Below, in pieces: positions 16,885-28,621 of a stretch of DNA of 32,746 nt. The stretch lies in assembly GCF_018613235.1 (NCBI RefSeq), contig NZ_JAGGQP010000004.1, positions 1-32,746 of the forward strand, in the 5' to 3' direction. The position numbers and the translations under genes are program-made. Positions within the stretch are counted from its first letter, which is position 1. Each line of letters starts with the position of its first letter. A model generated the notes under the pieces. It was given only the letters and a program-made list of their open reading frames with translations. It did not search any database and was not told the origin of the DNA. The DNA comes from Bacillus sp. ISL-41 (GTDB taxonomy: Bacteria > Bacillota > Bacilli > Bacillales > Cytobacillaceae).

Positions 16885-17322
16885 TTGAAAGAGACGAAAA
16901 AAGATTCTAGGGAGTCGTATTTATTTGCGGCCTGGGCTGCATCGATCATTGCCATGTTCGGCAGTCTGTATTTTTCAGAAATCCGGCAGTATGAGCCTTG
17001 TCTCCTGTGCTGGTATCAGCGAATCCTGATGTATCCTTTTGCCTTGATACTCGGGATTGCAGTTGTTAGAAAAGATTATAAGATTACCTTTTATACGATG
17101 ATTATGTCAGCTGTCGGCGGATTGATCTCGCTGTACCACTATTCATTGCAAAAGGTGCCATTCATGGCTGACAATGCTGTTACTTGCGGAAGGGTTCCAT
17201 GTACAGGCCAATATATCAACTGGCTTGGTTTTATTACCATCCCATTCCTGGCACTAACTGCATTCATCATTATTTTTTCATTAAGCCTGCTGGTCTGGAA
17301 GAAATCGAAGGAGGAAGCGTAA
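16885..17322 (+). CDS. bdbC: DsbB-type thiol-disulfide oxidoreductase BdbC
   Basis: 145 residues with four transmembrane helices and both DsbB cysteine pairs: Cys39-x-x-Cys42 (CLLCWYQR) at the end of helix 1, and Cys100/Cys105 in the second external loop (CGRVPC). DsbB proteins pass electrons from an extracytoplasmic thioredoxin-like oxidase to quinone. The TTG start at 16885 has GGGGAG six or so nt upstream. The gene is followed immediately by a membrane-anchored thioredoxin-like gene with a CPHC site, its obvious partner, giving a complete disulfide-forming pair. Confidence 0.93.
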   Translation: MKETKKDSRESYLFAAWAASIIAMFGSLYFSEIRQYEPCLLCWYQRILMYPFALILGIAVVRKDYKITFYTMIMSAVGGLISLYHYSLQKVPFMADNAVTCGRVPCTGQYINWLGFITIPFLALTAFIIIFSLSLLVWKKSKEEA

Positions 17323-17323
17323 C

Positions 17324-17794
17324 TTGAAAAAGGTCATTGTTTTTCTATTAATTATCATTGCATTATTCGCAGCATTATTTTTTCTAAATAAGGCGCAAAA
17401 TGAGGAAAAAGCTGAGGGAAATCCTTACGGGAAAGACACTTTGCATCCTGAAACCGTCAAACAGCTGGATGATCCGAACTATCAAAATATCATCCTGCCT
17501 GAAGAGCTGGAGAAAAAAATTGAAAACGGCGAGGATGTTACCGTCTATTTCCACAGTCCGACATGCCCTCACTGCGTTCGCACTACTCCGGTTGTTGCAC
17601 CTTTGGCAGAGGATATGAATGTAGACCTGGTTCAATACAACCTCTTGGAGTTTGAACAAGGTTGGAATGATTACGGAATCGAATCGACTCCAACCATTGT
17701 ACAGTACAAGGATGGAAAAGAAGTAAACAGGATCGTCGGCTATCAGGAAGAAGCAACTTTCGAAAATTGGTTCAATGAGAATACTTTAAAATAA
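17324..17794 (+). CDS. Membrane-anchored thioredoxin-like oxidase (CPHC)
   Basis: 156 residues. One N-terminal signal anchor (residues 3-21), then a thioredoxin fold with active site Cys81-Pro-His-Cys84 and cis-proline at Pro123 (ESTPTIV). CPHC is the DsbA-type dipeptide and favours an oxidase outside the membrane. The start is TTG at 17324 with AAGGAGG upstream, one base after the bdbC stop, so translation is coupled. It functions most likely as the substrate-oxidising partner of BdbC, comparable to the BdbA/BdbD partners of B. subtilis; which substrates is not visible. Confidence 0.92.
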   Translation: MKKVIVFLLIIIALFAALFFLNKAQNEEKAEGNPYGKDTLHPETVKQLDDPNYQNIILPEELEKKIENGEDVTVYFHSPTCPHCVRTTPVVAPLAEDMNVDLVQYNLLEFEQGWNDYGIESTPTIVQYKDGKEVNRIVGYQEEATFENWFNENTLK

Positions 17795-26404: not shown

Positions 26405-27793
26405 TTATGCTTCTGCTTCAATTTTTTGATTCATATCTGTATAGGTGGATGAATCAATTTCTTTTGTGATTCTGCTTGTGAGGATACCCGAAGTCATCGA
26501 GCCGCTCACATTTACAGCGGTACGACCCATATCAATCAATGGTTCGATGGAAATCAGCAACCCAGCAAGGGCAACCGGCAGGTTCAACGCTGAAAGTACT
26601 AGTAACGCCGCAAATGTTGCACCGCCACCGACTCCGGCAACTCCGAATGAGCTGATAGCTACGATCGCGATCACGGTTGCGATGAATGATGGTGTCAATG
26701 GGTCAACACCAACCGATGGTGCTATCATGACTGCCAGCATCGCAGGATAAATCCCGGCGCAGCCGTTTTGCCCGATCGATAAGCCGAATGAACCGGCAAA
26801 GTTTGCAATCCCTTCAGGTACTCCAAGGGAGCGCTGAGTTTTGATATTTAATGGCAATGCCCCGGCACTCGTTCTTGAAGTGAAAGCGAACGCGAGAACA
26901 GGAAATGCTTTTTTAACATATGTGACTGGATTCAAACCAGCAATCGTCAGTAATAACAAATGGATGATGAACATGATTGCAAGCGCAACATATGAAGCTG
27001 CTACGAATTTACCTAGTTTTAAGATTGCGTCGAAATCACTTAAGGCAACGGTCTTTGTCATGATGGCAAGAACTCCATATGGAGTCAGGCGCAGGATCAG
27101 CGTGACCACCCTCATGATGACCGCATAGAATGCATCGACAATCTTGGCGAAAAGCTCTGCCTGGTCTGGAGACTTTCTCCTGACTCCTAGGAATGCAATT
27201 CCCAAGAATGCCGCGAAAATAACGACAGATATTGTAGATGTTGGTCGTGCCCCGGTGAAGTCTAGAAATGGATTGGCTGGCAAGAGATCAAGAATTTGCT
27301 GTGGCATTGTGCGCCCTTCAATTCCTCCATACGTTTCCTCAAGCTTCTCAGCACGTGCTTGTTCCGCCTCACCCTGTGTAATTTGCACCGCTTCAAGGTC
27401 GAAACCAACCGCAGTAGCAATCCCGACCGCTGCGGCAACAGCTGTTGTACCCACCAGCAAGCCGAGGATCAATGTACTGATTTTACCGATGTTATTGGTC
27501 AGCTTAAGCTTCGTAAAAGCAGCCAAAATCGATATGAATACTAGCGGCATAACAATCATTTGCAAGAACTTTACATAACCGCTTCCCACAATCGAGAACC
27601 AGTCAGCACTCTTCATAATTACTTTGGATCCCGCTCCATAAATGAATTGCAATGCAAAACCGAAAACAATCCCTATTCCAAGTGCAATGAATACTCGTTT
27701 AGAAAAAGATACATGTTTTTTTTGCATATAAAAAAGAACAGCAATGATGCCAAGCATAACTGCAATATTTAAAATAACAAGTCCAGTGGTCAC
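26405..27793 (-). CDS. tcyP: L-cystine:cation symporter TcyP
   Basis: 462 residues of the dicarboxylate/amino acid:cation symporter family. Diagnostic parts are QMIVMPLVFISILAAFTKL, the re-entrant loop TSRTSAGALPLNIKTQ, NGCAGIYPAMLAVM, and GVAGVGGGATFAALLVLSAL near the C-terminus. The length and text fit B. subtilis TcyP (YhcL, 463 residues), a high-capacity cystine importer. The start is GTG at 27793, with GGGGGG about seven nt upstream. A sigma-A promoter lies at 27826-27854. I found no S-box; CymR control is known for tcyP in B. subtilis, but I could not identify its box with confidence. Confidence 0.93.
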   Translation of the reverse strand: MTTGLVILNIAVMLGIIAVLFYMQKKHVSFSKRVFIALGIGIVFGFALQFIYGAGSKVIMKSADWFSIVGSGYVKFLQMIVMPLVFISILAAFTKLKLTNNIGKISTLILGLLVGTTAVAAAVGIATAVGFDLEAVQITQGEAEQARAEKLEETYGGIEGRTMPQQILDLLPANPFLDFTGARPTSTISVVIFAAFLGIAFLGVRRKSPDQAELFAKIVDAFYAVIMRVVTLILRLTPYGVLAIMTKTVALSDFDAILKLGKFVAASYVALAIMFIIHLLLLTIAGLNPVTYVKKAFPVLAFAFTSRTSAGALPLNIKTQRSLGVPEGIANFAGSFGLSIGQNGCAGIYPAMLAVMIAPSVGVDPLTPSFIATVIAIVAISSFGVAGVGGGATFAALLVLSALNLPVALAGLLISIEPLIDMGRTAVNVSGSMTSGILTSRITKEIDSSTYTDMNQKIEAEA

Positions 27794-27955: not shown

Positions 27956-27986
27956 AAGAGGCTCCGAATTTATCACTCGGACCCTC
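27956..27986 (-). terminator. Terminator of the UGA-containing thioredoxin-fold gene
   Basis: Minus strand: GAGG-G-TCCGA and TCGGA-G-CCTC pair (one G-G mismatch) around nine nt, then TTTTC. It sits 11 nt beyond the stop codon at 27997. Confidence 0.75.
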
Positions 27987-27996
27987 ACCTGTCTTT

Positions 27997-28278
27997 TTAC
28001 TGCTTTAATTTTTCGGCAAGTTTTTCTATTTCGCTCCTGTTATTTTCGAATCCGATCAGTACCTTCTTGTCTTTCATAAAAAAGAGCTTCGTGCTTGTAA
28101 AAATAAACGCTGGTACAATCGCTGTACCTGTCTGCTCTTTAAGTTTTTTCTCCTGTTCAGGCTCGCCCTGGACATTGATTTCTTCATACGGTATATGATT
28201 CTGCGAAAGAAACTCCTTCGCTTCCTGGCAATCTGTTCACATTGGCCGGGTGAAAAGGGTTAATGAGCTTTTGGTCAT
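27997..28278 (-). CDS. Thioredoxin/glutaredoxin-fold protein, candidate UxxC selenoprotein
   Basis: The frame from ATG 28278 to TAA 27997 codes for 93 residues with a single internal stop, UGA at 28239-28237 (codon 14). Read as selenocysteine (U), the start is MTKSSLTLFTRPM-U-TDCQEAKEFL: a first beta strand and then U-T-D-C exactly where glutaredoxin-like proteins have CxxC. The rest is a normal thioredoxin fold with a cis-proline (TAIVPAFIF) and a charged C-terminal helix. AGGAGGT lies four nt before the ATG, and a terminator follows, so gene signals are intact. A small hairpin (28203-28221) 15 nt after the UGA could be a bacterial SECIS. Alternative: a pseudogene created by one TGC/TGT-to-TGA change, or a sequencing error. 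No other stop or frameshift is present. The gene needs selA, selB, selC and selD elsewhere in the genome. Confidence 0.75.
28203..28221 (-). promoter_or_regulatory. Candidate bacterial SECIS hairpin
   Basis: Minus strand GCGAAGGAGTTTCTTTCGC: arms GCGAAGGA and TCTTTCGC form 8 bp (one G-U) closed by the triloop GUU. The stem begins 15 nt, and the loop G lies 23 nt, after the UGA, inside the spacing known for bacterial SECIS elements, whose loop requires G and U. Confidence 0.5.
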
Positions 28279-28621
28279 TTTTACCTCCTGCAGTATGTTG
28301 TAAAATTAGTATAACGCCAAGTTATGAAGCGTATCCAATAATCCGCTTTTAGCTGTCTGGATTAGCCCAAGAATGTTAATGCTTGGCACTTTTTGTTATG
28401 AATCCTTGTGATTACCTTTAGATTATACCGTCGCACAACTAAAACAGTTGGCAATCAGTGAACTCCTGGAATAACACTAGACATCCACTTTCAGATAAAA
28501 TAAAAGCAACTATGATCAATTTTGTGTTAAAGTAAAAGTAATATATTTGAATAATTTGTCTTTTTGCAGAACTATCTTTTTGATGGAGCAGGTGGCTCCT
28601 TGTCGACTGGAGATTAAGACT
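28279..28621. other. Divergent promoter region of the UGA gene and kinB
   Basis: 343 AT-rich bases without a credible frame. CCAAG/CTTGG with a 10-nt loop followed by CACTTTTT (about 28369-28395) looks like a weak terminator or attenuator on the plus strand, and CAACT/AGTTG (28436-28450) is another small hairpin. Promoters for both flanking genes must be here, but no hexamer pair is convincing. Confidence 0.35.

Follow-up and report, generated by a model that had tools for sequence, protein, structure and literature searches.

The window analysed here, a stretch of 32,746 nucleotides from the genome of Bacillus sp. ISL-41, carries on its minus strand a small glutaredoxin-like gene whose frame is interrupted by one TGA (Table 1). 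An earlier reading of the window from its letters alone (the sequence-only reading) had proposed a candidate selenoprotein in which the TGA takes the place of an active-site cysteine in an otherwise intact frame of 93 codons, with start signal and terminator preserved. These particulars are borne out by the present analysis. The TGA falls on codon 14 in the context RPM-TGA-TDC and is the sole internal stop in the frame; a Shine-Dalgarno-like motif precedes the start codon, and a terminator-like hairpin follows the gene. A purine-rich stretch upstream of the start occurs also in the orthologues examined. With selenocysteine (Sec) at codon 14, the predicted protein would begin with MTKSSLTLFTRPM-U-TDCQEAKEFLSQ.

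Table 1. Features of the candidate selenoprotein locus (positions refer to the window)
Feature	Position	Strand	Basis
Candidate Sec-glutaredoxin gene, 93 codons + TAA	27997..28278	-	frame, translation, PF00462
Start codon ATG	28276..28278	-	frame
Stop codon TAA	27997..27999	-	frame
In-frame TGA, codon 14, presumably read as selenocysteine	28237..28239	-	TGA/Cys comparison
Codon 17 TGC, second active-site residue (presumed resolving Cys)	28228..28230	-	C17 invariant in 30 aligned members
Shine-Dalgarno-like AGGAGG, 5 nt upstream of ATG	28284..28289	-	sequence
Hairpin of 8 pairs with GUU loop, putative bacterial SECIS	28203..28221	-	covariation, covariance model, dS
Putative terminator-like hairpin 3' of the gene	27963..27981	-	consensus scan only
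Next gene, Sodium:dicarboxylate symporter family	26405..27793	-	PF00375, 320.8 bits

Gene, selection and protein family

With C written for U, the translation matches PF00462 (Glutaredoxin) at 47.2 bits, against a gathering cut-off of 22.9. Residues R11, P12, D16, C17, G51, V55, F77, and N80 are invariant among 30 aligned members, and the predicted fold, the U14-x-D-C17 motif, and the other invariant residues fit a redoxin. Among 19 orthologues of the genus, dN/dS is 0.08 in codons -11 to -1 relative to the TGA and 0.10 in codons +1 to +76, which indicates that selection at the protein level acts on either side of the TGA. A pseudogene is ruled out by these ratios of about 0.1 on both sides. 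A sequencing error at the TGA was likewise dismissed, because the same TGA is carried by 18 other genomes of the genus, which makes a read error very unlikely.

Sec glutaredoxins, such as that of Clostridium (Alkaliphilus) oremlandii, are a known kind of protein, as are the UXX-star redoxins. The former have PF00462 and the U-x-x-C arrangement in common with the window protein, and the similarity to 4tr0, which we take to be the Sec glutaredoxin of C. oremlandii, is remote (phmmer E 0.015 with the single protein and 6e-8 with the family profile). The window family differs from the C. oremlandii protein in its occurrence in Bacillales, in a C-terminal G-F-E-x-N motif of its own, and in its proximity to copper genes. 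A UxxC motif is given for selenoprotein Grx in passages of PMC9312934 and PMC13188914. The closest selenoprotein models are those of UXX-star, which are Grx-like and place Sec equivalently within the fold; the window family, by contrast, retains a cysteine three residues past Sec, and the window protein scores 43.5 bits against 66 for NF041212 (seven other members: 41.0 to 50.0 bits).

All NCBIfam cut-offs shown were missed by the eight members scanned. Membership in UXX-star (NF041212, NF041211, NF041114, and NF047338) was rejected because the scores of these members remain below the curated cut-offs, and so was membership in the YruB family of glutaredoxins (TIGR02196), which gives the best or near-best NCBIfam score of the window protein (47.7 bits) and ranges from 47.1 to 60.9 bits in the eight members, against a cut-off of 88.55. 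A "glutaredoxin family protein" encoded on a staphylococcal plasmid aligns with the window protein over its full length (37% identical) and shares the D-C motif, but it has Cys where the window protein has Sec, and its match to the SECIS model described below does not exceed 13.7 bits. A literature search at the level of titles and abstracts yielded no Sec glutaredoxin of Bacillaceae, nor one located beside copper genes.

Selenocysteine machinery and the putative SECIS hairpin

The host genome (4.62 Mb, 99.98% complete), in which the window is contig 44, encodes the entire set of Sec genes that the sequence-only reading had suggested looking for, all above curated cut-offs: SelA (563.1 bits; cut-off 267.9), SelB (359.6 bits; cut-off 242.25), SelD (394.1 bits; cut-off 125), and tRNA-Sec (67.4 bits; cut-off 47). 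The selD gene of the host (L016, 1501-2427; contig 48) is probably a selenoprotein gene itself, since it contains an in-frame TGA within KAGUGCK. This agrees with the UxxK motif given for Sec-containing SelD in a passage of PMC9312934.

A hairpin with a GUU loop had been noted 15-23 nt past the UGA, and its geometry is as described: the stem begins 15 nt and the loop 23 nt downstream of the UGA. It consists of GCGAAGGA / GTT / TCTTTCGC, that is, GCGAAGGA/UCUUUCGC in RNA form, with eight pairs that include one G-U. In the bacterial SECIS model described in a passage of PMC13188914, the loop has 3-9 nt and the stem 4-16 bp, a G occurs among the first two bases of the loop, and the distance from UGA to loop is 16-37 nt. 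Aside from the energy criterion of that model, the window hairpin, with its loop of 3 nt, stem of 8 bp, G in first position, and distance of 23 nt, agrees with this geometry in every respect.

The hairpin is conserved among relatives. Its cells are paired in 95.3% of cases among 37 distinct TGA sequences of the family and in 95.7% of cases when 10 sequences from other families are added. In these 47 sequences, 46 of which have a G in the loop, one stem pair takes the forms C-G, G-C, and U-A, and a second one the forms G-C, U-A, and U-G. There are 18 double-change cells, compared with 3.8 in shuffled alignments, and the covariation score is 0.216, compared with 0.108; none of 500 shuffles reached such values. 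Two further measures of covariation are no better than shuffles: 367 of 500 shuffles have as many pairs with double changes, and 233 of 500 have as many pair types. For 7 of the 37 family sequences (L027, L028, L060, L066, L069, L071, and L072), moreover, the lowest-energy structure predicted for the 48 bases differs from this hairpin; both points count against Sec insertion.

Synonymous sites are constrained in the same region. Among the 19 genus orthologues, dS is 0.11 in codons +4 to +11 and 1.37 in codons +12 to +76, and synonymous codons are almost fixed among 38 TGA sequences (Ala +6 as GCG in 31/31, Glu +8 as GAG in 37/37, and Leu +10 as CTT in 37/38). The 37 family sequences, including that of the window, were used to build a covariance model, which scores 74.5 bits at the window site, where the next best match has 10.6 bits. 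Applied to 41 further loci, it assigns 31.0-65.5 bits to the 10 held-out TGA loci and at most 21.7 bits to the Cys loci, except for one (L067, 44.7 bits). We therefore regard the hairpin as a putative SECIS element.

Selenocysteine and cysteine forms among relatives

In 193 genomes of the same family, 44 homologous loci were recovered. The equivalent of codon 14 is TGA in 42 of them, including one truncated copy (L073 in G139), and TGC in the remaining two, which supports the claim that the TGA sits at the position of an active-site cysteine. Within the genus, the gene is present in 19 of 21 genomes and has TGA in every case; the same search found no match to it in G079 (66% complete) and G089. 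The latter is a complete genome; its selA match is split in two and has a weaker E-value (1.7e-116), and selB and tRNA-Sec are over the cut-off. Near relatives with TGC, for which the sequence-only reading had asked, are thus absent among the 19 genus loci, and the two TGC loci of the family share no more than 43% and 45% identity with the window protein. None of the three findings that this reading had named as contrary to a selenoprotein (missing Sec genes, a read error at the TGA, near-identical strains with TGC) was made, and its proposal stands supported.

When a profile was run against 397 genomes of the order (16 of which belong to the family), TGA forms turned up in 10 more genomes, all of which have selA, and close Cys forms in 21 (25 if a more divergent group is included). 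A search at E <= 1e-14 across 398 sampled genomes of the phylum returned, besides two genomes of the genus, two weak matches, one of which has an internal TAG. The presence of selA over the cut-off differs strongly between genomes with TGA forms (48 of 49) and those with close Cys forms (11 of 23, with G041 and G050 counted; Fisher p 9.5e-7, kinship ignored), and also when the divergent Cys group is counted (12 of 27; p 8e-8, kinship ignored). The weight of this association as evidence for Sec insertion is limited by its disregard of kinship and by the general frequency of selA in the family (172 of 193 genomes). The search for selB and tRNA-Sec covered 11 further genomes; both are over the cut-off in the TGA-form genomes G139, G063, G186, and G092, and none of selA, selB, and tRNA-Sec is over it in G041, which has a Cys form. 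The broken copies in G424 and G503, genomes without selA over the cut-off, are Cys forms and therefore uninformative about the loss of Sec.

In a tree of 82 rows in which the TGA/Cys codon was masked, at least five changes between Sec and Cys are required; the tree is based on 92 columns and leaves 33 of its 76 inner branches open. One Cys form (L067 in G050) groups with the Sec forms, its hairpin is broken at the base of the stem, and selA, selB, and tRNA-Sec are all over the cut-off in its genome. Because of this grouping, the retained machinery, and the partly broken hairpin, L067 apparently represents a recent change from Sec to Cys.

A second, divergent TGA form occurs in L141, L142, and L143 (G034, G056, and contig 2 of G048, respectively). 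The surrounding DNA is nearly identical (100% over 19.8 kb between L142 and L143; 99.2% over 11.3 kb between L141 and L143), and the copy of L143 is located on a plasmid, for which reasons this gene seems to travel between genomes.

G171 presents an exception that speaks against Sec insertion: it possesses a TGA form with the hairpin, yet selA, selB, and tRNA-Sec are not over the cut-off. The gene lies in the last 40 kb of contig 10 (60001-99900; L127, L130), whose tetranucleotide composition correlates weakly (0.22-0.74) with four stretches of other contigs of G171, whereas the first 60 kb of the contig correlate at 0.81-0.89 with two of the same four stretches. The gene-bearing piece correlates at 0.87 with a stretch of G130. 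Composition shifts gradually along the contig, and C15, one of those four comparison stretches, is unlike all others. The likeliest explanation is a recently acquired island whose Sec gene would now be unreadable; contamination or mis-assembly is a possible alternative.

Taken at the level of sequence comparison, the evidence makes it highly probable that the locus encodes a glutaredoxin-fold selenoprotein with Sec inserted at codon 14. We infer that the hairpin downstream of the UGA recruits SelB and Sec-tRNA-Sec and that Sec enters as the first residue of the U-T-D-C active site. It is very unlikely that the UGA instead terminates translation, leaving a short peptide or, after an internal restart, a product that lacks both Sec and the first strand. 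The gene copy of G171, in a genome where no machinery was found, would behave in this way, and RefSeq annotates downstream fragments in three plasmid records, where the gene starts past the in-frame TGA (6043 vs 6040 in L074, 6070 vs 6025 in L075, and 4136 vs 4040 in L077); such Sec genes are evidently annotated from after the Sec codon. However, the dN/dS of 0.08 ahead of the TGA, the conservation of both TGA and hairpin, and the full Sec machinery of the host genome argue against termination. The chance that ordinary readthrough, without Sec, places Trp or some other amino acid at the UGA is close to nil. Although the frame continues past codon 14, all 31 non-TGA rows of the tree (28 order rows and L048, L067, and L076) have a Cys codon, so that the alternative residue at this position is Cys, which rules out Trp; moreover, UGA also stops translation in the genus, because two orthologues (L025 and L036) end in TGA.

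Copper-homeostasis genes and the proposed role of the redoxin

Among loci outside the genus, 23 of the 33 with TGA and 23 of the 25 with Cys have a homologue of copper-homeostasis genes within 5 kb and on the same strand; these are raw counts without a random-locus baseline, in which heavy-metal P-type ATPase, CsoR, or CopZ homologues were scored and five rows of the divergent group were left out. The counts depend on queries of which some were taken from the counted loci themselves (L063, L090, and L116), the CopZ query matches also the metal-binding domains of ATPases, homology to an ATPase alone does not name the metal, and the counts for L172 and L176, both Cys loci close to the end of a contig, rest on short CopZ-type matches. 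Staphylococcal plasmids carry a Cys member, whose neighbours in the one record examined are copZ and the genes for a heavy-metal ATPase and a metal-sensing repressor. Another recurring neighbour (L046, L063, L090, and others), at most about 1 kb downstream of the TGA form, encodes a protein of about 207 residues whose sole domain is PF01077 (nitrite/sulphite reductase 4Fe-4S).

In the favoured reading, the 93-residue product would act as a selenol/thiol oxidoreductase in which U14 attacks the disulfide of a partner and C17 resolves it. Throughout the family, its task might be to keep the thiols of copper-handling or copper-damaged proteins reduced. Because both Sec and Cys forms outside the genus are found mostly near copper-homeostasis genes, this reductase role under copper stress is the favoured one, but its assignment is tentative and falls somewhat short of an even chance. 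Arguments against a copper role are the absence of copA, csoR, and copZ homologues from the window, which contains only a cation-diffusion transporter about 19 kb off, the lack of copper neighbours at 10 of the 33 TGA loci (L141-L143, L151-L153, L160, L165, L170, and L173), and the scarcity of CsoR at the Cys loci outside the genus, 7 of 25 of which have it nearby (22 of the TGA loci have it, on either strand). The host genome has four csoR-type genes, all on other contigs.

The same copper-gene neighbourhoods would suit a protein that mainly binds or relays Cu(I), with U-x-D-C as a soft metal site for copper buffering or hand-over rather than as a disulfide reductase. A passage of a 2026 review (PMC13188914) considers Sec a possible metal ligand in UXX-star and Sao selenoproteins. 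Redox chemistry, however, suits both the fold and the Grx-type motif, and the window copy is not close to copper genes, which renders Cu(I) binding rather unlikely. Within the genus, another partner is suggested by the gene context: a PF00375 symporter gene, probably encoding what we take to be the cystine importer TcyP, lies downstream on the same strand at 18 of 19 loci, so that the redoxin might reduce imported cystine or related disulfides in partnership with this transporter. This role ranks behind Cu(I) binding and is improbable, as the two genes are separated by the terminator-like hairpin and promoter-like sites (consensus matches only), and no tcyP match was found in the searched flanks of 24 family loci outside the genus or beside the order loci. 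Elsewhere in the window, on the plus strand, two adjacent frames (16885-17322 and 17324-17794) resemble, by eye, DsbB/BdbC-type and thioredoxin-type proteins and may form another thiol-redox pair.

A reductase of copper-linked thiols thus remains the preferred role. More broadly, it is conceivable, if doubtful in its full extent, that Bacillales possess a redoxin family that is encoded mostly in copper-resistance clusters and switches between Sec and Cys, with a selenolate that acts on or binds Cu(I)-exposed sites.

With this locus, Bacillales gain a selenoprotein family that has no curated model; an early survey had credited the group with few selenoproteins (three for Firmicutes/Bacillales in a table of PMC1794560). 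The apparently recent change from Sec to Cys in G050 and the Sec gene without machinery in G171 offer a natural setting in which to follow how Sec is gained and lost. If the proposed role is correct, copper handling in these bacteria would be partly selenium-dependent, which links selenium with copper homeostasis in a testable form.
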